DNA from: Bombyx mori
Taxonomy: Eukaryota; Arthropoda; Insecta; Lepidoptera; Bombycidae
NCBI RefSeq assembly: GCF_030269925.1
Contig: NC_085112.1
Span: 1,861,501-1,925,500 of the forward strand
Direction: 5' to 3'
DNA: 64,000 bases
Part shown: piece after piece, positions 2,598 through 50,018 of the stretch
Numbering within the stretch: position 1 is the first letter of the stretch
How the letters are laid out: every line of letters starts with the position of its first letter
Notes under the pieces: model-generated
Seen by the model: the letters and a program-made list of their open reading frames with translations, nothing else
The model's database searches: none
Told to the model about the DNA's origin: nothing
Translations under genes and position numbers: made by a program

Positions 2598-5500
2598 TTT
2601 GGGAAACAAACAGTACAATACAAAAAATAAATATTTAAAAAAATATAGCTAAAACAATAACCAAATATGTTTCCACAATCAAAATCACTTATAAGTAGAC
2701 AGTGAACAAGAAGAGAAATTTAGAAATTTAAATTACAAAAAAACAAAAGCAACACAATACGCACATATCATTTTATACATTAACTTACACTATAAAACTA
2801 CAACACTTATCGGGCCAAATCACCCTATAAACACTCCAAAACAGCTTTTCTATATGCTACAAGTGACAAGCAAAAGATGTCAGCATTAGAGAACTTAGCA
2901 TCATACAACCTACAAGATCTACGGACAAAAGAGTTAGAAGCATATTTCGTTCGAGCCGTGGACATGTGGAAGGTCTGTTTAGAACGCGCGGAAATACGAC
3001 TACATTTAAATGTAATTTTGGAAAGAAGATAGCTAGAATCAATCTCGTTATTTATTATTTTATATAAAAACATTTGATCCCTCAGTAGCCTGCGATCGAC
3101 TAGAGAGACAAATTCTGTCGGTTCTGGAGAGTTAAAGCGACGACAATGGTATAAAAGATGCCTAAAAAACCTTTTTTGGACTCTTTCTAGTCGCTGAATA
3201 TAAATATTATATTGGGGGTTCCATGTGACGGAGCCATATTCCAATATAGACCGTACAAAACTGTTGTACAACAGAATCAAAGTAGATGGTCTTTTAAAGT
3301 CTTTACCAACTCTAAGTATGAAGCCTAAGATTCGAAAAGCCTTATTTACTATTTCGTTAACATGAAAATCAAAAATCAAACTGGAATCCAAATAAATACC
3401 CAAATCACGAACAACTGTAGTGCGTACCAAAGTTTGACCATTAATAGAATAGTCATACAAGATATTCGATCTTCCACGTGAGAATGTTATAATAGTACAC
3501 TTATTAGTATTCACTGTGAGTAAGTTATTTTGACAGTAAACAAATAAGTTGTTCAAATCATCCTGTAATTCCAAACAGTCGTTTAAGGACTTTATAACTT
3601 TATATACTTTTTTGTCATCAGCGTACATAATGAATTTGGATTTCTTGAAAACATTCGAAACGTCATTGACATATATATTAAATAACATAGGACCGAGATG
3701 AGAGCCCTGAGGAACTCCCGAGGGAACAGGTGCAAATGATGAACAAAAACCATTGAAAGTCACAGCCTGACTGCGATCTCTAACATAAGACTCGAGCCAT
3801 CGCAGCAAATCACCGTGGACCCCAAGTCCATGCAATTTCTCAATCAAAATGTCAAAATTTATTCGATCGAACGCTTTGGAATAATCCGTGTACACCACAT
3901 CAACCTGATGACCATCCTCCATGGAGCTCAATACATAATCCAAAAACTCACAGAGGTTTGTCTCAGTAGATCTATGGCTTATAAAACCATGTTGTTGCTC
4001 TATAATATGAGGCCTAATCAATGGAAATAAAAAATCATAAACTATACGTTCAAACATCTTAGGGATGGCACAAATTTTAGAAATTGGTCTGTAGTTAGCT
4101 ATGTTATGTTTATCACCGCTCTTAAAGACTGGCACCACGAACGACCGCTTCCAAATACGGGGCATAACACCAGTTGATAATGAGTGATTAAAAAGAAGAT
4201 GCAAAGGGTAACACAGCTGAGCGTAACATTGTCGCAAAAAAACAGGCGGAATACCATCCGGACCAGCACCCTTGGAAATATCAAGATTTTTCAAATATTG
4301 CTTGACTTTACCCACCGAAATAAAAAATGAAGAAATATCTACACAGTTAAGGTCGTAAGAAGCAGGGGTATAACTTAACGATGATGCTGACTGTGTATTG
4401 TTAGTTAAAAAGGCAGAACCAAAATGAACATTAAATAAATTACATATTTCAGAACCATCAGATGAGCACCTATCATTGAAGAACAATTCGTTAGGAAAAT
4501 CCCCAGCACTCCTCTTGGATTTAACAAATCTCCAAAATTGCTTACTGCACTTCAAGATATCATCCTCACACTTTGTTATGTGTGCATTGTAACAGCAAAT
4601 TTTTAAGGCTTTTTGTCTTTCACGAAGAACAGAAAAACTTGAATAGTCGGCCAATCGACCATAACATTTCCATTTCCTGTGAAATTTTCTTTTTTCTTTA
4701 ATCAACTTGATTAAAGCAGAGGAGTACCAGTAAGGGAAATTGGAGTTACCTCTTACGACCTTCACAGGCACATTATCAGAAATAATCTTGTCTAAGATTT
4801 CATGAAACTTGCCCACGGCCATGTCGACATCTAAATTCATAAAAGATTGTTTCCAATCAATTTTCGAAAGTTCCTCGTTAATAATAGAGTAGTCACTTTT
4901 ATGGAAAAGCAATATGGACCGGCCAGGAGAACGTAGGGGTCTCACGTCTAACCCCTGAATCTGAATATCTAAGGCTGGATGATGATCATCCTCAGATACA
5001 AGAGGAAGGGACGAACGAACAACCTTACAAGCACAATTACTTATTACTAAATCTAAGCATCTTTTATTTATATTAGAAATCGAATTAAATTGTTTAAAAC
5101 TATTAAAAGCTAAAAAATTAGAAAGACCAAAGACAAGTGAGTCCCACCGATCACCATTCAAGAGTCTAGCAGGTCCATCAACACCGATCAGCTCCCAAGA
5201 AGCATTCCTTATATTGAAATCGCCGACGCACAAAAATTCGTCACCGGGATTAGTAATAATTGTATCAGAAATATCCTCAAAAAAACCAATTTCATCTTCA
5301 AACTGAGAGGAACATTGAGGAAAATAGCAACAGTAAAGATGGAGTAGTTTACTAACGTTATTGTGCTTAATATTTATTTTTATCGAAATAATATCAGCTG
5401 ATCGGTTTCTGTTGGAAGGGAGACAGGTTAAATTAAAAACGGTAATTCCTCTACGCACAGCAATAAGTACCCCGCCACCCAAAGAATCATTTCGAGAGTT

Positions 5501-35291: not shown

Positions 35292-35315
35292 ATGGACCAA
35301 GAGTGGGAGACATGA
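35292..35315 (+). promoter_or_regulatory. seven-codon upstream ORF overlapping the BTB start
   Basis: ATG at 35292 encodes MDQEWET and stops at TGA 35313-35315, which overlaps the BTB start codon (35312-35314) as ATGA. This layout would favour stop-and-reinitiate control of translation if both codons lie on the mRNA. Confidence 0.5.
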
Positions 35316-38300
35316 GCTACCTGACAGTGGACGGACCGAATCCTTCGATGGAGAAACCACCTGAGGATGCTGAACCAAACGAGGACCTTGAGGTGAGCTG
35401 TATTTAATCTATCTAGTAATTTGCCAATTGGCACTGTAAGAGAATCGGATAAATTTCTAGATGACCCAGGAGTCTTGGTGCAAAGTATTTTGAAACGTTT
35501 TTGTTCCAAATTACTCGCATTTATTATTTCTTTAATAGAGCTATAAAAGCCGACTTGAATAGAAAAAAAAATGGATACTGAGAAAATAAACCACTGGTTT
35601 CCTACAACACAATTTATTGTCTACGCTTTTGAGGTCTAATTTCAAAGCCGGCATAAAATTTTAAATTCATTAAAACTATCGTTTTGTGAAACAATTATGA
35701 ATGCGAACAATTATGAAACGTTAATGAATGCAATTTTCGAAATATTTTTTCTTCAATGAAGATTTTAACCCGGAGGGCAATTTGTTTGTTCTGCAACAAA
35801 GTTGTTGCAGTCCGAAAGATCCTACTGTAGCATATACATATCACACTGTAGGTCTCCAGATATTTAACCACACTTTTTATAAGAAAATTTGTCCTAAATG
35901 TTTTTATCAACAGTTTCCAAAATGAAACAATAACATTGCTTAGTAATGATTTATAGCTGCAAAGTTATAACTCCTAGTAATTACTGGCTTAAGAGCATAT
36001 TCAGAGCCCACATATTATGTAGATACTACCACTTGATCTATTTCTGCTACATATCCAAAATGCATCCTAATTTGAAAGGTTTGAATAGTTGTTACAAAAT
36101 TTGACTAAAGTTACAAGTCACTGTCAAGACTAACTATGAGCTAGTTGATTCATGGGATTATATTTTTTTGTTTTGACTTATGTACATGTTTGTTAAGTGT
36201 TGCTCATGCCATTAACAATGTCAACACTTATGCTAATGTTAGAAGTTTTTGCCTGTCAATAAACCTGGTGAATATATATCAACAAGTGATATGACATAAT
36301 TATTACAGGTGGATAATTCAAAAAGTGTGCTGCTGAAGATAGCAACTCTGTATGCTGAGCAGCTGATGAGTGATCTGACCCTCGAAGTAGCTGGAGTTGG
36401 ATACCCAGCTCATCGATTAATATTATGTGCTAGTAGTGAAGTTTTTCAGGTAATTATTAAATGACCAATTACAATTTTTTAACTAGATACATTGCTATAA
36501 CACTCATGTTTTTGTACTCTTTTTCAAACGAGGCTTGTGGAGAGTATTAAGCGGTAGGCAGCGGCTTGGCTCTGCCCCTGGCATTGCTGAAGTCCATGGG
36601 CGACGGTAACCACTCACCATCAGGTGGTTCATCTGCCTACAAGGGCAATAGATAAATAAAAACTCTTTTTTGAGAAATAATATGAAATATCTGCACAGTA
36701 AGTTTATTTAAATCGATATCACTGTGCAGTATTATGTTGAAGATAAGAATAATGTGGTAATGTTTGTATATTGTAATAATAATATACAATTGACAACATT
36801 TCATTTTTTTAACATACTCATATTATTATGTTAATTGATACTAGATTCGAAATAAACAGACCCATATAATTAATTTTTTGGAAATTAGATAGTTTTCATT
36901 CATGAATTTGGTTTTGAATTTCGTTTTATTCTATAGACTAGAGAATAGAGAATTTAATGCATGTTAATTTTTTGAAATGTCAATTATTATGTGTATATTA
37001 TGTAAGTAATATTTTTAACAATAATTCAAATAGCTGTAGTTATAAGAGCTTAATGAATGCAAGCACTCTAAGAGCAAGCACGTCTAAGCACTTCTTTCAA
37101 ATCGATGAAGGTTGCTCAAAGGAATAATGATATAACACACACAAGAGGTTTTAGTTCAAAGCCTGTTTGCAGGTTATGTTAATGAATAGAGAATGGAGTG
37201 AGTGGAGGGAAAGTCGCATAGTCCTACAGGAGACACCTTCTGCGGCATCAGTCTTCCCACATTTTCTAAAGTAAGTTTTTCCTTATTATTTAAGGCTTTT
37301 GCTACTAGCAGTAGCAAGAAAGAGTAGCAGTTTGGTAGACAGTGGCTTGGCTCTACCTCTGGCATTGCTGACGTCCATGAGCAACGGTGACCATTTACCA
37401 TCTGGTGGGCCATGCGCCTGCCTACAAAGGCATTAAAAAAAAAGTAACTATACTCACCTACCACAAAACGCCACCGGCTGAAAAACATTATCTATACAGG
37501 ATAAGTGATGTGCGCATTATCAGCTCAGAGTCTACAGCAAAGCTTGCTGTAATGAGAGGGTTAAACATATAAAAAGAGTTGTTTGGATTATTAAGTTTTT
37601 AAAAAAATTTTAATAAGATTATAATATAAAGTAGATTATGAAAATAAATTAAAAATACTATATTTAAATGAGACAAATAAAATGTTTCCAGGTATTTCTA
37701 CACGGGTCAGATTAGGATATCCTATCACACAGTGCTTCCAGTCTTGTCACTCGCTGACAAATATAATGTTAAGGTAAACTAAATTTCGAGTATTAAGGTT
37801 GAGATAGTCGAAAACCTTTTTAGTCTAAACACACCAATATATTTAAATAGAAAATAGCAAACGATAATTTTCATCTACTACTGAACATCTGCATATCAGA
37901 CACTGGTCAGAATATTAGAGCAAAATTATAAAATAACTGTATTGTTATTGGTCCTTCATGCGTGTGCAAATTTTCAAGTTAATCAGACTTCTTGAAGTCA
38001 GTCAAAATAAGATTCCGACATATACACACTTAGCTTATAAATATGTATATTTTTTTTTACATTGGTTATAAATTTTTTGACATTTTTACATAATTATTTA
38101 CATTGGTTAATAAACTAGCCATTCTTCAGGCCACAATAATGAGTCTCTCAATTTAACTTACACCTTTTAAATATTGCTAGTATGAATTAAGAATAAATGG
38201 ATGTAGGCTGCATCATCAGCAGAAACATATACAATATCATATACCGTTAATATAATTTAATAGGATCTATATAATTTGGTTGGTTTCCAGGATCTGGTGA

Positions 38301-41300
38301 CATTATGTCTGAGCTATATGTCACAGCACATTGCCCAAGCTGCCAAGCGCGGACAACTCATAGCTTGGATGCAATACACCATGGGTTGCGGACACAATGA
38401 TGTTGCCAAGGTAGAGTTTTAAAGTTAACCGGTACTGCTACTTATTTCTAAAAACAGTCAAGATAATTGACGTGATTAATTTTTTTAAGGAATACTTGTA
38501 ATATAGGGAATTGCCATTACCAAATTAATCAATACTAGTGGTCCCCCAGTAGTTGAAATTCGACTATAATTAATTGAAATTATAAATTGGAGAAGACCTG
38601 GTCGCCCTGTACACACTTGGCGACGCACCGTAGAGAGTGAGATGAGGACTGCCAACGTGACCTGGAGTGATGTCAAGGAGCAAGCGCAAGACAGGGTAAA
38701 GTGGAGACAACTTGTGAGGGCCCTATGTACCAGCGGGGTACCCTAGGACTACAACAACAACAACAACATAAATTTGAACATTATTATGGTTCTATTGTCA
38801 AAGAAAGATTATTATACTTTAATCACAGATTTCGCCAAAAGTTTGACAGTAAAGAGTCTAATAAAACACATTGTGTCAAATATATGGTAGTGTGTATAAC
38901 GTTTTTTTTTCTTTCTTGATTTAATGTATCATTTATGCATTATTTAAAAAAAATTAGCTTTCTGCACTCCTATATATTCGCTATTAGTGTGGGAAATTTC
39001 ATACTTCTCTGTGCGCGTAATTTTCGTAAAAAGGGGTACAAGGTTTTTGCTTCATGTATTGATATATAGATAAATAAGCACTGTTCTTGCGTATTAATAT
39101 ATAGTTAAACTAGCGACCAGCCCTCGCTTCGCTTCGGAAACTGTAATTTCTTATTGATTTCTCCACTATTTAATGGATGTTATTATACGTCATATAAACC
39201 TTCCTCTTCAATCATTCTATCTATTAAAAAAACCGCATCAAAATCCATTGCGTAGTTTTAAAGATTTAAGCATACATAGGGATATAGGGACAGAGAAAGC
39301 GACTTTGTTTTATACTATGTAGTGATAATAATAATTACTGTTCTTGGTTGACTCGTGCCGATAACAAGATTTCTGATGAGGCAGATTAAATTGAAGTTGT
39401 GCTCCAGGCTTGCCAGAACTTTGTGAAGTGGAACGTGGAGTGGGTGTGGTCTGAAGCAGCACTGGCCGAGCTGGAGGGAGACACGCTGGTGCAGCTGCTA
39501 CAGCACACGGACCTCGTGCTGCACAATGAGATCACCTTATACCAGTAAGCTGATTAACGAATCGTCTTTTCAAATTAAAAGTGTACAATTTTACTCTGTT
39601 TACTGGTGGTAGGACCTCTTGTGAGTCCGCACGGGTAGGTACCACCATCCCACCTATTTTTGCCGTGAAGCAGTAATGCGTTTCGGTTTGAAGGCTGGGG
39701 TAGCCGTTGTAGCTATACAACCTTAGAACTTATATCTCAAGGTGGGTGGCGCATTTACATTGTATATGACTATGGGCTCCAGTAACCACTTAACACCAGG
39801 TGGGATGTGAGCTCGTCCACTCATCTAAGCAAAAAAAATAATTAAAAAAATAATAATAATATGCGGAATCATTTGGTATCACCCGTATTTTTCTCATAAA
39901 TACTGTCAAAAGAACGTAGTTTAGTTTTAGTTTTTTATTTACCTATGTTTTGACAACTATTAACAAAATTAATACTTAATTTAAAAGACAGATAATGTAA
40001 CTGGTAAAAATTAAAAAGAAATGTTGCAAAGATGATTGATATTAAAAATATCACAATATGTTAAACCTTAAACGCGAGAAGACGAAATGTTTATATTATT
40101 ATATTTGAAGAGTTCAGAAGAGTCTTATTTTTATTGCTTAGATGGATGGACGAGCTCACAGCCCACCTGGTGTTAAGTGGTTACTGGAGCCCATAGACAT
40201 CCACAACGCAAATGCGCCACCCACCTTGAGATATAAGTTCTAAGGTCTCAAGTATAGTTACAACGGTTGCCCCACCCTTCAAACCGAAACGCATTACTGC
40301 TTCACGGCAGAAATAGGCAGAAGGTGGTACCTAGCCGCGCGGACTCACAAGTGGTCCTACCACCAGTACCAATAATCTTGTTATAAGAGCATGTTAATTC
40401 TTGAAGGTTCGTGGTGCGATGGTTGAACAAGCAACGGGAGAAGCTGGACAGGACTGATCTCAATGAAGCAGAGAAGAAGCTGCACTGGGAGTCGCTGGTG
40501 GCGGCCGTGTTCTCGCACATCAGGTACGTCCGCTGGGCATCATGGCTCACGTTACCTTCGATACTGCTGCTACTGGAGCAGTCGAGAAAAATGGAGATAA
40601 TAAATATAATGAGCGAATACGATTCATCGCTGTAGTTAGGCCTGCGAAATATAATATTAATTTCCTATTATTTTTCTCTTTCTTTGGTCGTGTGTTTTAA
40701 TTAAAACACTAACTCCTCACCTCCAAATAAAAAATACAAATTAAATTACTTTAATCTTAATTTATTTACGATATTATTTTGATAATAATAAATAATATTT
40801 GTGATAAACAAAAAGCTTGGTTAGTAGCTTACAACATTAACGTTAACTAAAACAATCAAAATTAGAATCTTCAGATAACCGCGAGTTTTAGCGTTTGGCG
40901 GGATTGAAAACGATTAGTATTCTAGTTCAGCGTTTTCTGAAGTTTCCTCCCATTCAGCCCCATATATTTCAGGTTCCCGATGATGTGTCCGAACCAGCTA
41001 GCGAAGCTGCTACTCTGTCCGCTGACCCAGGAGCACAAGGACTTCTTCATGGAGCGGATGGCCATCGCCATGAGCTACCAGTCAGGTAACGTCAGAATGC
41101 AGGGTACTTACTGGTGGTAGGACCTCTTGTGAGTCCGCGCGGGTGGGTACCACCACCCTGCCTATTTCTGTCGTGAAGCAGTAATGCGTTTCGGTATGAA
41201 GGGTGGGGCAGCCGGTTGTAACTGTATAGTTAGTATTTGAGACCTTAGAACTTATATATATTATACAATTACGTTGTAGATGTCTATGGGTTCCAGTATC

Positions 41301-44300
41301 CACCTAACACCAGGTGGGCTGTGAGCTCGTTCACCTATCAATACAATAAAAAAAACAAATTATCGGTCCCCTAAGACTAAAGATAGTAAGAGTACCCAGG
41401 GGTCCGTGGGAGACCTGGTGGTCCTGCCGCCGCTACAGGGACTGGTTTGTGGTCGCGCAGGTCAGTACGAGCGGGTGGCGGAGGTGCAGCAGACGGAGGC
41501 GGGTCGGATGCTGTTCACCCCTCGACTGTACACCGAGGACACGTGGGGATCCATCCTGGGTAATCCAACATTCGTATCATAAACGAACGTACCTACTGCA
41601 TGTCTGTTATTCCTCTGTCATAATCAGTGGCCGGAGTAGGTAGATTGATTTTATATACTTGCGTCAAGATATTATAATATGGACATGCTATTTTATCCAT
41701 AATGTTTTTTTTTAAATTGAGAAAAAATTTTTTTGATCCTCGTCGGTTATAATTTCTATATTTATGAGATAAAGTAACAATAAGCCCTGTCTGAGTTTTG
41801 TCTTATACTGACAAGCGTCATTTCTAATTCAACAGAAAGGGAAAAAATACGGTGTAACTATTCCAAGGTGTTTTTGTATAAAATAAAATACTGATTTCTT
41901 TCACTGTTAGCTAGCACTGGTAGCGTAGATTAATATTATTATGACGTTTTTCACCTTAAACACGGATTCATGCTAATTTCAAAATTCCGGAACAGATATC
42001 ACAATAAATATGAAGTTCCGGTATTTTGGAGGCATATCCATATTATCCTCTACGTTTGACGTCAACGACCTTAAATCAATCTACCTACTCCGACCTCTAG
42101 TCATAATAAAAGCACTTAATATTCATTATATTCTTCGGTTCTCGTGAATCGTAAACTGAACTAAAACTAAATTTAAACTTTCGAAATTTCGGATGTAAAT
42201 TACCAATGTTAAAAAACTATATATTATCAGATTCGAATAAAATTTCACACAAACGATACTTTGTATCCAGGTAAATGTTTTTTAACGTTCTCGATAGTGT
42301 AAAAGTTTACTCGAATTTGTATGGAGTTTGAACGTTTGCCTACGTTTGCCGCTAGGGGCGCTGTTCCAACTCCATACAAATTTGAGTTAACTTTTACGCT
42401 ATCGAGAACGTTGAAAAACTCGCACTAAGTACACAGATCTAAAGATCAACTGGTACCACGTGAACCGGAGACTTTCACTAGCCACTTTTTATCCCCCCGG
42501 GAACACCCGGTGAATCCCCGGGGACACGTTTCTATCCTACGTTAAGTCGTATACTGGTATAGGGCTGTGTTCACAAAGCAACCGTAAGCCCTAACTTGAC
42601 GATGCACGCGCCTTCCGATATTGAATCCTGTCCATGGAGCGTTTCGCCTGTTTGCGCCAATAAAATAATACCATCACCACCCAATAAATACCAAAACCTG
42701 CTTCGATATTTTGGGGATGCTTCTTCTAAACCGTGGATTCAAATTTGTAAGGTGCCCTGGTTTGGGTCTGAATTTAGTCCAGGGCTTTGTAAAACCCAAC
42801 TGTGATGTCTCTCTGGACACTTCTGTAATGGAAAGTATCTCTGCAATGATGAACGAAGTGTACCAAAACCAGGGGTCTAAAATACCCTTAATGATAAAAG
42901 TGTCGATACGTCTTTCATTTAAATTTGATAATATAATTTAGGATAAAGTTAAAACTTCTTTAACTATTCTGGAGTTAGCGTTAAGCAGTGGCTTGACTGT
43001 CTCCCTGGCATTGCTGAAGTTTATGAGCGACGGTAACCATTCACCATCAGGCGGGCGGTATTAATCTGCCTACACGAGTAATAAAAACTAAATTGCCAAA
43101 TGACCACAAAAGTGTATTGACACTCTCCACAGCGGTGGACAACTTCCACTCCCTCCCATGCTACCACACGAGGACGTTTATATTCTCGACCCGCCCCACC
43201 ATGTCGGACGTCCCCCCTCACGACAAGCTTCTGGAGTGGACCGTGGACCTGTACCCGAAGGGCGTCTGGTTCAAGAAGAGCCTGCTCATTGTCTGGGCCG
43301 GTACTTATGATGTAAGTTAAGATTTTAATTTTTTTTAACAGCAACCCAGGTCGGTTGTTTATGGCAACACTTATTTAACCAGTGTTTGTTTTAATTCAAA
43401 TATACCATACTATGCCAATTCTTAATTTTAGTGTGGTATTCTTGTATGATATTAAATGGTTAATAAATTCCCTAGAATCATTATTTATTTATTTATTCCA
43501 AGGAGAACCAACAGATCACTCAACATAGCATAATAATATAACCCACCACCACCTACCTTTTTGAGACATGAGTTCTAAGGTCTCAGTATAGTTACAACGG
43601 CTACCCCACTCTTAAAACCGAAACGCATTACTGCTTCACGGCAGGAATAGGCAGTGTGATGGAACCTTTTTTTTTATGGCTTAGATGGGTGGACGAGCTC
43701 ACAGCCCACCTGGTGTTATGTGGTTACTGGAACCCATAGACATCTACAACCTAAATGCGCCACCCACCTTGAGATATGAGTTCTAAGGTCTCAGTATAGT
43801 TACAACGGCTGCCCCGCCCTTCAAACCGAAACGCATTACTGCTTCACGACAGAAATAGGCAGGGTGGTGGTACCTACCCGTGCGGACTCACAAGAGGTCC
43901 TACCACCAGTAATTAATTAGCCATTAGCGAAGCGCGACCCGCTTTACTAGTAGTAGATAAATTCGATAAACTTTACATTCTTTGTCTGTGGCGTTGGTAG
44001 TAGAATAGTACGAACTTGTCAGGTTCCGGAGGTGGTGTTGCGCACAGTGCGCATATCGATCACGTGCCAGAACTGTCCGGAGCCCGCGCTGGACCAGTAC
44101 GGGGAACCAGAACAAACTGAGCCCGACGTCAGAGTCAAGGTGAGCTTATAAAAGAAGAAAAAAATGTGATGATGATTGTATTTTTTTTCCTAAAATGTCT
44201 TAAGTTCATTGTTGCACTAGTTTAAATCGATTTACAATATACAACGTGTTACAAAACACCCCGTAAAAAATGTAATTAATTAATTTACCCTGACCAGTAC

Positions 44301-47300
44301 TCAATATATCAAGAAAATTATATAGGTGTGTATGGTTCATTAAAACAAATATACACATACATACGCAAACATATTAATAGTTTTCATAATTAGGAAAAAA
44401 AATTAAGTTAATTTTTGTTGTTGTTGCTATCCATACTTTTTTCAATGGAACTTTGACAGATCAAAGTCATTGACGTGCAAATTCTTATTTGAAACGCACT
44501 ATATTTATACATAGACAATGCGCTCATCGAGGCGCGGTGTGTAGGTTGTGTCTATGGAGGGCAGAGGTAAGGAGAATCGTCCCCGTGTGTGAAAAAGTGT
44601 CCGTTAAAATCTGCTAAATAAGGGTGGCGCTACAGTAGCAACCGGTAAATTTAAAAAAAGGCGCTGAAAGCTATTACAATAAGATAGAGAAATAAAAAAG
44701 GACGAAAGAACTTTTATAACAGTAAGCACTACAAAATCACAAAAAGTATTTTATTTAAAGCTGATAAGAAAATGCAATCGATGTCTCCACGTTTTACCAC
44801 AGCAATAATTTTTAGGTTATATTGACGAAATTAATTTGGACTATGTACCTAAACATGTCACTAACTACTCTAGTCATGAAATATATTAAATTTCCTAACT
44901 CAGCATACTTCAATCAGTTAACAACTGCTAAATTCATATCATACCCTGTGCCTGTGCTAGCGCCATTTTGGAGGATTTTTGAACTGTTATTTAGTGCTGA
45001 AAGTGGGACACTTTTTCAAGCTTCTCCCATATGAGACGGTTCTCCTTACCTCCACCCTCCATAGTTATGTCGCTCCGCAGATCGGCGTGCTGGTGTGGGG
45101 CGTGCAAAAGGGCGTCGAGCACGTGTCGTCCGTTGTCGAACGTGTACACAGATTTTCTGCGCAAAACAGGTAAAGTACACTCTACATTCTAACACTAAAT
45201 CTGATTTTAATTGAATTTGGCATTTAATAAAAAAAGGATTGTGTGTGTGGTTTTATGAAACCACGGTAAAATAGAATTTTTTTTTCACATTACAGATATT
45301 GAACTAAAAATTTTTGGAATAATATTCCATTAAGGGTATATTTATACTTGGAAAATTGGAATGACAAGGGAAAGGATAAAAGTAGACTAAGTCCGCCGCC
45401 ATATTGGTCTTGGCTGCTCTGACTAGCGCCATTCACTTTATCCCTACTCCGCGGCCGACCGTCACGCGACATGCAACACATCGACAAAAAGTTTGAGACG
45501 ATGTAAATAAAAACTGGTGCGCGTGCAAGAAATTCTCAACTTCTTCTTTGTCTCCACTTTATCCCCCTAGATGGGGTCGGCAAAGCGAATTTTCTATTAT
45601 ATTCTCTTCTATCAGCCGTCATCTCAAATCTCACTTCTATCTCTCTCTCTCTCGTATCGTCCTTCACACACTCCATCCCTGTCTTTTTCGGTCTTCCCCC
45701 TCTACCTTGCACTACCATTTCCATACATCTCCTAGTCACACAACACAAAGTAGTTGTTGCCGATACCTATTCGATGGTTATCGAACGAGACTAGGTTTTA
45801 CTTAATAATTTTATTAGTGAATAGCGGCCCGCTATGGCTCCGCTCGGGTCTTTAACAAAAATTTCAACGATATTTGACGCGGTTTTATTTTTTTTAAATA
45901 AAAGAACACTTATTGCGGCATAACTATAATAGTTAGACATATGCTGTCCCGACACTTTTTGTAAACAATATTGTGTTCTACAAAGTCGTAGTACATTATT
46001 TTATTCTATCATCAATAATTTTCGCAGGGCACGCGATAGCCTATGTCAGTCGGGAACAGTGTAGCTTCCAAACAGTGAAAGAATTTTTAATCAGTTTAGT
46101 AGTTTCGCAGCCTATTCAATACAAACAAACAAATCTTTCCTCTTTATAATATCAGTATAGATAATTAAAATGGTTATTAATTTATTTAAAATACCACTCT
46201 CTGAAAATATTTTAGAAACTAATTTGTTGAAGTCGTTGACCTTGCAGTGTAGTAGTTTAAATAACATCCATCAGATGTCGCTGAACTAAATAATGACTTA
46301 GCTCGCTTTGTCCTTGCCCTCTCTGTGCGGTCGAGTGGTTCGCGAGACGCTGTCTATTTACTCACTCCGCTCTTCCTAAATTGTATCTTTTCTCTGTAGC
46401 TGTAACGAATCTGTCTTTAGTTAAATTTTACTCTCAACGCGCCTAAAGAAGCTTCACTTCAAAAGTAATCTGTTACAATTCGAATTTAAAGCGTCATATC
46501 GTGGTTTGTGTTTGCCTTCAGCATGAGATAAGCGGCCAGTGAGCACGACATGACGTGGCTTCTGTGTTGCAGAGTTCTGAACATTGACGCCGCGCTCGAC
46601 TTCGACGCGCTCAACACCCCGCTGTACTCGCCGCCCCCCGCGCCCTGCCCCCCGTCGCACAGGTACGTAGTGGGTCCTCCGCGCCCTGCCCCCCGTCGCA
46701 CAGGTACGTAGTGGGTCCCCCGCGCCCTGCCCCCAGTGGCACAGGTACGTAGTGGGTCCCCCGCGCCCTGCCCCCCGTCGCACAGGTACGTAGTGGGTCC
46801 TCCGCGCCCTGCCCCCAGTGGCACAGGTACGTAGTGGGTCCCCCGCGCCCTGCCCCCCGTCGCACAGGTACGTAGTGGGTCCTCCGCGCCCTGCCCCCAG
46901 TGGCACAGGTACGTAGTGGGTCCCCCGCGCCCTGCCCCCGTCGCACAGGTACGTAGTGGGTCCTCCGCGTCCTGCCCCCAGTGGCACAGGTACGTAGTGG
47001 GTCCCCCGCGTCCTGCCCCCCGTCGCACAGGTACGTAGTGGGTCCTCCGCGCCCTGCCCCCCGTCGCACAGGTACGTAGTGGGTCCTCCGCGCCCTGCCC
47101 CCAGTGGCACAGGTACGTAGTGGGTCCCCCGCGCCCTGCCCCCCGTCGCACAGGTACGTAGTGGGTCCTCCGCGTCCTGCCCCCAGTGGCACAGGTACGT
47201 AGTGGGTCCCCCGCGTCCTGCCCCCCGTCGCACAGGTACGTAGTGGGTCCCCCGCGTCCTGCCCCCCGTCGCACAGGTACGTAGTGGGTCCTCCGCGTCC

Positions 47301-50018
47301 TGCCCCCAGTGGCACAGGTACGTAGTGGGTCCCCCGCGTCCTGCCCCCCGTCGCACAGGTACGTAGTGGGTCCTCCGCGTCCTGCCCCCCGTCGCACAGG
47401 TACGTAGTGGGTCCTCCGCGTCCTGCCCCCCGTCGCACAGGTACGTAGTGGGTCCTCCGCGTCCTGCCCCCCGTCGCACAGGTACGTAGTGGGTCCTCCG
47501 CGTCCTGCCCCCAGTGGCACAGGTACGTAGTGGGTCCTCCGCGTCCTGCCCCCAGTGGCACAGGTACGTCGTGGGTCCCCCGCGTCCTGCCCCCCGTCGC
47601 ACAGGTACGTAGTGGGTCCCCCACAACCTGCCCTCCGTCGCCCAGGTACGTAGTGGGTCCCCCGCACCCTGCCCCCCGCCCACAGGTACGTAGTGGGTCC
47701 CCCGCACCCTGCCCCCCGCCCACAGGTACGTAGTGGGTCCCCCGCCGCACAGGTACGTAGTGGGCACCCCGCGCCCTGCCCCCGCCGCACAGGTACGTGT
47801 GCGTCCGCAACAAAGGTGACGATTTTATACCATATAACAATTTCAATTTATTCAATTAATTACCGTGATATAAAAAAACTCAAAATAGCATGCATTAATG
47901 TAACGTTATGTTACAGACGCTGTGCGAAGTGTACGGACGCGTGCGACACGCCGGAGGTCAAACACCTGCTTGGAGCCAACGGGGACCAGCTCAAGGTATC
48001 ACTAGACACATATATTCTCTAACTCTAATTGAACCGATAAGAGCGCGACTCAATTTTCAATGAATGCAACTCTTATCCAACCCAGGCGGTGAAGATACGC
48101 AAAACTAACCCACGCAGCCCAATGAGTTTCTCGCCGAATCTTTTCAGTGGGTTACGATTCCGATCCAGTGGTACTCTGCGAAGCACTGCTCTCGTGGAAA
48201 TAGTAGTGCAAGATACAGGGGGAAGAGGTCGACCGAAGAAGACACGGATGGAGTGTGTGAATGCTGATATGAGAGGGAGAGGAGTGAGTGTTGAAATAAC
48301 GGCTGATAGAAGAAAATGGAAGAGAAAAATTAGCTGTGCCGACCCCACCTAGTGGAATAAGGTGAAGAAAAAGAAGAACAGTTACATTGTTTTACTTATT
48401 AACTGGTGTCTTAGATCACGGGCATAACCTGAGAGAATTTGCAGAGACTACGTTCTAGAGATATCGAAACAACCCATAGTATTATCGGGAATGTTCTGGA
48501 AATTTGTAGATATTCTTCTTTTTCTTCGTCGTTCCCTCATTACTGAGGTTCTCGACCACACGTATGTAAGTCTCTCCATGAAGATCGGTCCGCTGCGAGG
48601 TGGAACGTCTGTTGGATGCTGCCTCCTACTCTTTTCTTTTCTCGATCCTCTCCTCGTATCCCCTCAACTTGACTAAGAATGAGAAGGTTTTCCAGACTAT
48701 GCCTTAAGGACCGCATGACATGTCCGAAAAGGCTAAGTAGACATAGTCGATATGAATTTAAGCGTGCGAGGCATTGGCGACGTGAAGGCAGCTTTATTCG
48801 AAGCGAAGTAGCGAAGTCTACTTTAAGTGTCATAATAACTAAACTTAGTTTTAATTAGTATTCTGATGAAGAGTTTTCTTTATCCTACCCCACGGCGCGT
48901 GACATAAGGTTTGTTCATATTTCATCGTCGGCTTCAGGTAGAATACATATTTTTTTTTTATAATTTTTATAACTGGGAACAAAGTACGCCCGATCATTCA
49001 GCCCCATTCAGGGATTCCCTGTGCTATGGGTACCAGACTGACATACATACTTATATACGTTTAAATATATACATACTGTGAGGTCATTTTAATAGGTGAC
49101 ATTTGACGTCTGTCAGTTTTATCATCATAGTGAGGTGACCTGCTTAAAAACATCGATTACTTAAATGACGCAACATTGTAACAACGTTCAGTTCTTTAGA
49201 TCAGAAATTGTTTATTATGTTTAGAATGGTTTATTAGTGAAAGCAAATCGTAAAATTACTCGTATCGGTCATTATTACAATAAATATGTAATCGTAATCG
49301 AAAAAAAGTGTGCAGTTCTAACTAACAAAACGAAAAAATATATTATTTTATGCCCGCCATTACAAGGTGACGTTATTAAATTTTGATGAATTGTCAAATG
49401 TTATGCCGCGCAAATAAAGAAACGAATCTAAAATGGCGATCATGCGCTTTCACTCTAAACTATTGCTGTCTTTAGTCGCACACGGCGCGACTGAATGCAA
49501 AAAAAAAAAAATGTCAGTTCTGACTTCGTTGTTGAGTTCGAGTTTTTTCACTATCGAGTTGTGCGACTTAGATGACTGGCAGCAAAAGTGTCTACGCAAG
49601 TTGCATCCCAGATGAGAGACCTCTCCCTCTGCCAGGGCACAAAGTAAAGTAAAGTACATTCTCATTTGTTTTTTTAGATTTTTTTACAATAAACAACTTT
49701 TCTTTCTATCTTTGTTTTTTTTTTGTTGACCCTACCATCTGTCAGTGCAGGTGCAGAGACGCCATTTTAGATTCGTTAAATTTATTAGTGCGGCTTATAC
49801 GTATTAAAATGACCTTACAGTATATCACCAAACCTGTTTATCACACAATGTTTGCCCAATGCGGGAATCGAACCTACGACCCTCGGCTTCGAGAGTCAGT
49901 ACCGCTAACCACTGCACCACGGAGACAGTAATCGACTTCTTCATTTCAGATACAAGTCGTGATACTCCCACTCACGGACTACTGCCACGTCGGCGCCCCG
50001 GAGTCGACGTACGGATGA
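35312..50018 (+). CDS. BTB/BACK-domain protein, BTBD17-like, 536 aa (15 coding exons)
   Basis: Exons: 35312-35392, 36309-36449, 37173-37270, 37692-37773, 38291-38410, 39408-39544, 40407-40523, 40973-41085, 41461-41559, 43133-43311, 44023-44139, 45081-45169, 46573-46662, 47917-47995, 49950-50018. Total 1611 nt, phases agree at each junction, TGA 50016-50018. Exons 2-4 encode the BTB fold ([20 protein letters not shown], then [20 protein letters not shown]). Exons 5-8 give the helical BACK region ([20 protein letters not shown]). Exons 9-12 form a beta-rich C-terminal domain like that of BTBD17. Such proteins often dimerise and some serve as cullin-3 adaptors; the role here is not known. Exon 13 ends in a proline-rich stretch ([11 protein letters not shown]) whose DNA starts the donor minisatellite. 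Exon 14 has CAKCTDAC. Introns are full of SINEs and MITEs. Confidence 0.88.
36540..36660 (+). repeat. 110-bp SINE-like retroposon, sense copy in BTB intron 2
   Basis: GCGGCTTGGCTCTGCCCCTG, GGGCGACGGTAACCACTC and a final GGGCAATA-A-rich end. Confidence 0.65.
37325..37440 (+). repeat. 110-bp SINE-like retroposon, sense copy in BTB intron 3
   Basis: Same family (GTGGCTTGGCTCTACCTCTG), ending in an A-run about 170 nt after exon 3. Confidence 0.65.
38533..39112 (+). repeat. dispersed repeat (ACTAGTGGTCCC family) split by a LINE tail
   Basis: ACTAGTGGTCCCCCAGTAGT starts the element, which resumes at about 38775 and ends TATTAATATATAG. The uninterrupted relative is 62593-63022. Confidence 0.6.
38589..38767 (+). 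mobile_element. LINE 3' end inserted in another repeat, copy 2
   Basis: Encodes [20 protein letters not shown], then [16 protein letters not shown] and a stop, followed by a (CAA)n tail. ATAAATT on both sides (38582-38588, 38768-38774) is a clean target duplication for a 179-bp, heavily 5'-truncated insertion. Confidence 0.8.
39112..39335 (+). repeat. dispersed lepidopteran repeat in BTB intron 5
   Basis: Begins ACTAGCGACCAGCCCTCGCT and ends near TATACTATGTAGTGAT; belongs with 2240-2460 and 45825-46165. Confidence 0.5.
39600..39862 (+). repeat. Bm1 SINE body, plus strand, BTB intron 6
   Basis: From TACTGGTGGTAGGACC to an A-rich end, 55 nt after the exon 6 donor. It forms an inverted pair with 40127-40368. 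Confidence 0.88.
40127..40368 (-). repeat. Bm1 SINE body, minus strand, BTB intron 6
   Basis: T-rich start to CCTACCACCAGT; ends 38 nt from exon 7. Confidence 0.88.
41107..41356 (+). repeat. Bm1 SINE body, plus strand, BTB intron 8
   Basis: Starts 21 nt after the exon 8 donor and ends in an A-run. Confidence 0.88.
41640..42277. other. BTB intron 9, unassigned part
   Basis: AT-rich intron; no element recognised before the hairpin MITE. Confidence 0.4.
42278..42420. mobile_element. hairpin MITE in BTB intron 9
   Basis: Two arms of about 50 bp (TTTTTTAACGTTCTCGATAG ... and its mirror ... CTATCGAGAACGTTGAAAAA) surround a short GC-richer loop (GCCGCTAGGGGCGC). The transcript would fold into a long hairpin. 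Confidence 0.7.
42970..43085 (+). repeat. 110-bp SINE-like retroposon, sense copy in BTB intron 9
   Basis: CCTGGCATTGCTGAAG and GCGACGGTAACCATTCACC; ends about 48 nt before the exon 10 acceptor. Confidence 0.6.
43541..43911 (-). repeat. two Bm1 SINEs, one inserted in the other (minus strand)
   Basis: A Bm1 body (43541-43668) breaks at GTGATGGAACC. A second, more complete copy with its own T-run begins at about 43669 and runs to CCACCAGT at 43911, in the same orientation, in BTB intron 10. Confidence 0.8.
44555..45061. mobile_element. DNA transposon with TGGAGGG..AGAGGTAAGG ends, copy 1
   Basis: Inverted ends (TGGAGGGCAGAGGTAAGGAG and its mirror) flanked by TA (44553-44554, 45062-45063). 507 bp, no coding capacity. 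It ends only 19 nt from the exon 12 acceptor of the BTB gene, and an inverted relative is at 51898-52411. Confidence 0.8.
45536..45760 (-). repeat. LINE reverse-transcriptase C-terminal fragment
   Basis: The minus strand encodes [17 protein letters not shown] and [12 protein letters not shown], matching 48196-48355 on the other strand. This is the C-terminal end of an RTE-like reverse transcriptase. Confidence 0.6.
45825..46165 (+). repeat. dispersed lepidopteran repeat in BTB intron 12
   Basis: GCGGCCCGCTATGGCTCCGC at the left and TATAATATCAGTATAGAT at the right. Confidence 0.6.
46300..46465. repeat. MITE-like repeat, copy 1
   Basis: Ends CAACGCGCCTAAAGAAGCTT. Its reverse complement, with small changes, is at 55886-56055. 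Confidence 0.55.
46640..47795 (+). repeat. 41-bp minisatellite that multiplies a 5' splice site 29 times
   Basis: Each unit carries the tail of exon 13, the donor, and the intron start: CCTGCCCCCCGTCGCACAG|GTACGTAGTGGGTCC and so on. I count 29 CAGGTACGT sites from 46660 to 47794. Units come in two main types (CGTCGCACAG and AGTGGCACAG before the donor) that often alternate in pairs. Left units read GCGCCCTG, middle units GCGTCCTG, and the last five are more diverged (CCCAG, CGCCCACAG, CCGCCGCACAG). A few units are shorter than 41 bp. The exon boundary that keeps frame is the first unit (46662|46663). Confidence 0.93.
48100..48355 (+). repeat. LINE tail pieces in BTB intron 14
   Basis: 48100-48190 is the ATCTTTTCAGTGGG repeat. 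48196-48355 encodes [20 protein letters not shown] and KISCADPT then stop, a LINE RT C-terminus. Confidence 0.6.
48540..48833 (-). repeat. LINE reverse-transcriptase C-terminal fragment, minus strand
   Basis: Reads [11 protein letters not shown], then [14 protein letters not shown], the usual end of LINE reverse transcriptases (FGHV..R ... A.DR..W). Not a host gene. Confidence 0.55.
48947..49925 (-). mobile_element. tRNA-derived SINE (non-Bm1) interrupted by a TA-flanked DNA element
   Basis: The minus-strand tRNA-like head is at about 49858-49925 (GGTGCAGTGGTTAGCGG box A, GGTTCGATTCCCGC box B). The body resumes at 49073 and runs to an A-rich end near 48950 (CAGTCTGGTACCCATAGCAC). The break contains the element at 49076-49820. 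Confidence 0.7.
49076..49820. mobile_element. 745-bp non-autonomous DNA element with 19-bp inverted ends
   Basis: CTGTGAGGTCATTTTAATA at the left is mirrored at 49802-49820 with one mismatch. TA flanks both ends (49074-49075, 49821-49822). An inner inverted pair (AACGAATCTAAAATGGCG near 49420 and its mirror near 49760) is also present. Tc1/mariner type is suspected. Confidence 0.7.

Follow-up and report, generated by a model that had tools for sequence, protein, structure and literature searches.

How can a gene carry a minisatellite across one of its exon-intron boundaries and still make its normal protein? This question is raised by a 64,000-nucleotide stretch of the Bombyx mori genome (the window). 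Within it, the exact sequence CAGGTACGT occurs 29 times in tandem on the forward strand, at 46660-47798. Each occurrence is a potential 5' splice site (CAG/GTACGT, with the slash at the cut point), and the 29 cut points run from 46663 to 47793. The features that we will refer to are, in window coordinates:

35312-50018, forward strand: BTBD17/Tango10-type gene with 15 coding exons, encoding 536 amino acids with BTB, BACK, and TRAF_BTBD17 domains
46573-46662, forward strand: coding exon 13 as closed by donor 1, 90 nt; its final 24 nt are repeat copy 1
46639-47809, forward strand: 41-bp minisatellite with 29 copies; each copy has 24 nt ending in CAG, followed by GTACGT within 17 nt
46660-46668, forward strand: donor 1, CAG/GTACGT, which gives the 536-residue protein in the gene model
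46663-47916, forward strand: intron 13 from donor 1 in the gene model, 1254 nt
46701-46709, forward strand: donor 2, which in the gene model gives 531 residues with a frame-shifted tail
46709-46711, forward strand: in-frame TAG, reached in every mRNA that is spliced at donors 3-29 or keeps intron 13
47790-47798, forward strand: donor 29, in the last copy, which adjoins unique intron sequence; an intron from this donor would be 124 nt
47917-47995, forward strand: coding exon 14 in the gene model
49950-50018, forward strand: coding exon 15, the last, in the gene model, with the stop codon TGA at 50016-50018

The original prediction for this locus described 29 tandem donors about 41 bp apart, in a unit made of the end of an exon, a donor, and the start of an intron. 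That description is accurate. Each unit has 24 nt of exon-type and 17 nt of intron-type sequence, and neighboring donors are 41 bp apart in 23 of the 28 intervals (40 bp in four and 27 bp in one). TRF assigned the array a period of 41, with 27.2 copies and 93% matches, at 46635-47745. In other words, this is a tandem repeat with a unit in the 10-100 bp range, and 29 of 29 units keep the exact donor. The only other CAGGTACGT in the window, at 40521, is the donor of exon 7. The window thus has 30 occurrences over both strands, whereas 100 dinucleotide shuffles averaged 0.24 and never had more than 2. GC content is 72% in the array and 37% in the window.

We also considered that the array might be a dispersed repeat or a satellite. 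However, a search of the 461.7-Mb assembly matched the array's DNA to itself alone (counts from this search are lower bounds). An antisense gene was rejected as well. All three minus-strand frames are open at 46454-47855 (456, 453, and 414 codons), but this is because the stop-free 41-bp unit reads through in every frame.

The gene model has 15 coding exons and GT-AG introns, which were chosen by eye and joined by a script. The exon numbering in the original prediction is consistent with this model. All 14 introns are 375-1954 nt long; the array starts within exon 13 and occupies most of intron 13. The 536-residue protein matches the Pfam families BTB (E = 1.2e-18), BACK (E = 5.5e-14), and TRAF_BTBD17 (E = 1.6e-59). 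The match to TRAF_BTBD17 spans residues 315-522 and crosses the donor-1 junction at residue 488. In an alignment of 50 homologues, the linker that ends in exon 13 could be parsed in 46, where its length ranges from 11 to 57 residues. Among the 120 homologues listed of 351 matches, many are named BTB/POZ domain-containing protein 17, and some are named transport and golgi organization 10. Given these names and the shared BTB and BACK domains, the fly counterpart of this gene is likely to be tango10. Excerpts of a review state that fly TANGO10 binds CUL3 and that tango10 affects behavioural rhythms (PMC9502492). The combination of BTB, BACK, and TRAF_BTBD17 domains fits a BTBD17/Tango10-type putative CUL3 adaptor.

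Two observations concern the ends of exon 13 in database proteins. A B. mori protein in UniRef (A0A8R2HME4, our P0003) is 100% identical to our protein over 85% of the query, has 460 amino acids, and ends in SAQNSMR. This ending fits an acceptor at CAG/CATGAGATAA (46522-46531), 51 nt upstream of exon 13, which would bring an immediate stop; the 5' end of exon 13 may be alternatively spliced. In Manduca sexta, isoforms X1 and X2 (P0022 and P0024) differ by one Arg at the junction of exons 13 and 14, within the aligned stretch. This one-residue difference is what a NAGNAG acceptor would give.

The choice of donor would change the product in the three ways that had been predicted. Donor 1, which was expected to give the normal protein, keeps the conserved 536-residue frame. 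Donor 2, which was expected to shift the frame, adds 41 nt to the mRNA and gives 531 residues with a new tail; the stop is a TGA at 49960, within the last coding exon. And all later donors (donors 3-29, or 27 of 29) do run into the in-frame TAG: each gives the identical 503 residues, ending at 46709. In this class of mRNA, the stop lies 112 to 1160 nt upstream of the last exon junction. Exon 13 would also grow, from 90 nt with donor 1 to between 131 and 1220 nt with the other donors (376-1220 nt with donors 8-29).

Evidence as to which donor is used comes from the protein cluster P0002, which has a 536-residue representative, 8 sequences, and 44 contigs. Its source tag is lgn, which we take to mean assemblies of public read sets. 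The longest contig has 2271 nt and the gene spans 14.7 kb, so the P0002 sequence derives from spliced RNA. In the representative, exon 13 is joined to exon 14 in the donor-1 frame. Our comparison used the representative alone of the 8 sequences. It has two differences from the window's protein (S486P and S533T), so it is from a slightly different allele, which may or may not carry the array. The P0002 representative supports the use of donor 1, without proving that donor 1 wins beside 28 rivals.

Two protein searches found no alternative-donor tails (donor-2 or truncated), and clustering at 90% may mask them. For the tail of the donor-2 product (region 477-531), no protein scored among 123 candidates with E up to 10. 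With a 110-residue tail, which is a weak test given the 90% clustering, two of 20 candidates were hits, both of them from other moths. These negative results are weak because the products of the other donors share about 91% with the main product and could hide in a 90% cluster. We infer that splicing on the allele with the array normally uses donor 1.

What could distinguish donor 1 from 28 near-copies? The predicted U1 duplex is -9.5 kcal/mol for the donors of the array, apart from copy 23 (-7.9) and copy 29 (-9.8). For the 13 donors elsewhere in the gene, the values lie between -4.5 and -9.7 kcal/mol. Donor 1 is a strong donor, exceeded among the gene's 14 only by those of exon 1 (-9.7) and exon 11 (-9.6). 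We considered whether RNA structure might select donor 1, and rejected this: predicted accessibility is low at all 29 donors (0.0001-0.0039), and donor 1 (0.001) is no more accessible than the other 28, which leaves its position as the basis for any preference. The fold of the first 218 nt is less stable than that of shuffled sequences (z = +2.43; 200 of 200 shuffles fold equally well or better). Where introns are long, as they are here, splicing is likely to proceed by exon definition, and exons of 376-1220 nt suit exon definition poorly.

We propose that the minisatellite hides itself: the first donor closes exon 13, and the later copies become intron. We consider this to be the probable explanation. 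A block comprising the last 24 nt of exon 13, the donor, and the start of the intron would have been duplicated in tandem time after time, growing into a GC-rich minisatellite that straddles the exon-intron boundary. Because the whole donor lies in the duplicated block, the exon would still end in an intact donor at any copy number. Since every copy has a complete donor, the spliceosome can close the exon at copy 1. Donor 1 would be favored through exon definition (a 90-nt exon between introns of hundreds of nucleotides or more), and the copies after it would fall in intron 13 and be removed. If the first donor is used, then the later copies are intronic, so selection would hardly see the array, and it could turn over freely. 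Its lengthening or shortening would do little to the protein. Donor 2 and later donors might be used at a low level, producing small amounts of mRNA that encodes the alternative tail or is prone to decay, as might be expected from human IFI6 (see below).

The variation among the units bears on how the array might have grown. There are 13 distinct types of unit among the 29 copies, and 22 of the 29 have an exact twin. Copies 1-24 are nearly uniform and mix two forms of the exon side, while copies 25-29 are diverged or shortened. The most diverged are copies 25, 28, and 29, with edit distances to the nearest copy of 5, 15, and 5. Divergence tends to increase in the 3' direction (rank correlation 0.36; P = 0.056 two-sided and 0.025 in a one-sided permutation test), as if the array had grown on its exon side. 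Across the 24 full-length copies, the donor nonamer is the sole 9-bp window of the unit that is free of variation, and it is also invariant in 29 of 29 copies. With 9 variable columns placed at random (24 copies), this invariance has P = 0.08. A version with 27 columns (28 copies) gives P = 0.005, but there a single deletion makes too many columns count as variable, and the copies are not independent. The invariance of the nonamer is suggestive of selection on the donors. It may reflect homogenization instead, given how many copies have an exact twin. Residue 486, one of the two that differ in P0002, sits in a variable column of the array: the residue is Ser in copy 1 of the window but Pro in the P0002 representative, and the column has C in copies 26-29. 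Turnover of the array that alters the coding end of exon 13 would fit this difference, which is at a single site.

To look for other arrays, we searched the genome for three copies of CAGGTACGT spaced by 10-40 bases, and ran a reversed control. The search covers units of up to about 49 bp with these donor letters. It found 40 overlapping triples, all in two arrays, versus 0 in the reversed control. The array in the window accounts for 27 triples, and the other 13 are in a second array:

G000:C5:17622804-17623404, minus strand (positions 4655-5323 of locus L012): second array, with 15 exact CAG/GTACGT sites and a 42-bp unit

The gene that carries the second array encodes an M3 peptidase, probably mitochondrial intermediate peptidase, and the array sits on the donor of its penultimate coding exon. 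The first copy is inside the coding exon, and the match to Pfam's Peptidase_M3 (E = 5.9e-17) crosses the donor-1 junction. Two unit types are intermixed, and a sixteenth copy is broken. The array is 82% GC. The spacings spread over 41-47 bp because a run of G varies from 9 to 15 in copies 2-15. The unit belongs to its own gene and aligns poorly with the BTBD17 unit (outside the donor, the best alignment is gapped and poor), so the two arrays look independent. They share a genome, the same CAG/GTACGT donor, and the placement of the first copy in a coding exon. They differ in what the downstream donors would do. The 42-bp units have no stop in any sense frame, so of the 14 downstream donors, five (5, 6, 9, 11, and 12) would extend the protein in frame; another 8 would meet a stop 31 nt inside the last exon, and donor 15 would read past the usual stop. 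In contrast, 27 of 29 donors in the BTBD17 array lead to a stop.

The second array suggests that exon-intron boundaries of this type can be seeded repeatedly. A broader idea, which we hold only tentatively and think more doubtful than not, is that boundary minisatellites bearing donors form a recurrent class in the silkmoth that hides itself in this way. A CAG/GTACGT donor beside a GC-rich exon end would seed the growth, splicing at the first copy would shield the array from selection, turnover would overwrite the coding end of the exon, and the amount of alternative or decay-prone mRNA that leaks out would depend on array length. About 1,700 occurrences of CAGGTACGT are expected in the genome by chance (0.24 per 64 kb, scaled up), and the nonamer may occur about as often at true donors. 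That two of two CAGGTACGT arrays lie on true donors is not strong statistics alone.

Arrays of this kind are known from people. In 1995, Turri et al. reportedly described a minisatellite with multiple splice donors in human IFI6 (also known as 6-16 or G1P3). For human CBS, Lievers et al. are said to have linked a variable number tandem repeat (VNTR) to reduced activity in 2001. According to an excerpt on IFI6, two downstream repeat units serve as donors, so that three mRNA species arise (PMC4526556). The CBS VNTR is designated c.1444_1467+7(16_21) in an excerpt on that gene: each 31-bp unit has 24 exonic and 7 intronic bases, and there are 16-21 copies (PMC2630376). To judge from these excerpts, IFI6 resembles the silkmoth array in being a minisatellite with a splice donor in its repeat units. 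It differs in being human and interferon-induced, in its unit of 12 bp, and in that alternative donor use is reported. The silkmoth unit is 41 bp, which is not a multiple of 3, 27 of its 29 donors lead to a stop, and the use of its downstream donors is only predicted. CBS is alike in that, going by the name of the VNTR, every unit has the start of a donor, and neither 31 nor 41 is divisible by 3. However, the excerpt gives CBS 7 intronic bases per unit, versus 17 in the silkmoth, and documents a length polymorphism in people, while the silkmoth array is known from one allele. The silkmoth array belongs to the kind known from IFI6 and CBS. New here are an insect example, the sheer count of donors, the frame shifts that a 41-bp unit would cause, and the second independent array in the same genome. 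In our literature search, we saw no title about an insect boundary minisatellite that bears donors, and most subscription papers are outside that search.

The original prediction had raised another explanation, that the array is regulatory: 28 extra donors would compete for U1 snRNP, array length would set the shares of functional, alternative-tail, and decay-prone mRNA, and copy number would tune the output of the gene. The identical donor nonamer in all 29 copies is consistent with this. So is the pattern of products, with 27 of 29 donors giving one truncated product whose stop lies before the last junction (by 112-1160 nt), and a donor-2 stop that falls in the last coding exon. Human IFI6 offers a precedent, as its downstream units are used as donors (PMC4526556, in the excerpt), and another is CBS, whose VNTR is tied to reduced activity by the title of the 2001 paper. 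However, neither of the two protein searches, weak tests as they are, found an alternative product. Furthermore, the 376-1220 nt exons under donors 8-29 are poor for exon definition. We view a regulatory array as unlikely.

Alternatively, the repeat might matter as DNA, through a G-rich template strand that forms quadruplexes or promotes recombination, with the donors as passengers. In favor of this, the array has 72% GC in a 37% GC window, and its minus strand has 2 strict and 65 loose quadruplex motifs. The second array, at 82% GC and with G runs of 9-15 in copies 2-15, points the same way. But just 2 strict motifs in 1.2 kb is few, and the donor is the least variable portion of the unit. 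We think that a role as DNA is quite improbable. As for an artefact, tandem repeats are generally prone to assembly errors, and the copy number or the array itself might be mis-assembled. This seems inconsistent with the 13 distinct types of unit and the diverged copies near the 3' end. Also, a 1.2-kb array is well within the length of long reads, the assembly has 30 contigs, and the second, independent array shares the design. We give an artefact hardly any credence, and we prefer the explanation that splicing at copy 1 hides the rest of the array.

To us, the most interesting part is the recurrence of donor arrays in one genome. The two arrays are a natural, graded test of how the spliceosome chooses among near-identical donors, with 29 copies in one, where downstream donors would change the frame, and 15 in the other, where some of them would keep it. 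They show that a repeat can grow over a coding boundary without necessarily damaging the protein. And if array length varies among silkmoth strains, then the number of donors could be related to the output of this tango10-like gene.

We also searched the genome for triples of other donor sequences. With AGGTAAGT, there were 2 matches versus 6 in the reversed control, and neither was a clear array by its matched sequence; with AGGTGCGT, there were 0 matches. With AGGTRAGT, there were 36 triples in three arrays (25, 9, and 2), versus 4 in the control. We did not count any of these three as a boundary array. The one with 25 triples (L043 4534-5070, on G000:C5) is a 12-bp array of GTGAGTGYGGAG behind a coding exon, which we take to resemble a CAP-Gly domain, and it is antisense to that gene. 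The one with 9 triples (L044 4718-5118, on G000:C14) is a 31-bp array with 12 AAG/GTRAGT sites, and no adjoining exon was established: an open frame ending in SPLLVTPQ reaches the first copy, but we found no clean acceptor there. The one with 2 triples (L045 4465-5067, on G000:C24) is an AT-rich 26/52-bp array with 8 sense AG/GTRAGT sites. It is intronic, beginning about 35 nt beyond CTGC/GTGAGT, the donor of a coding exon, and is possibly an array of decoy donors inside an intron.
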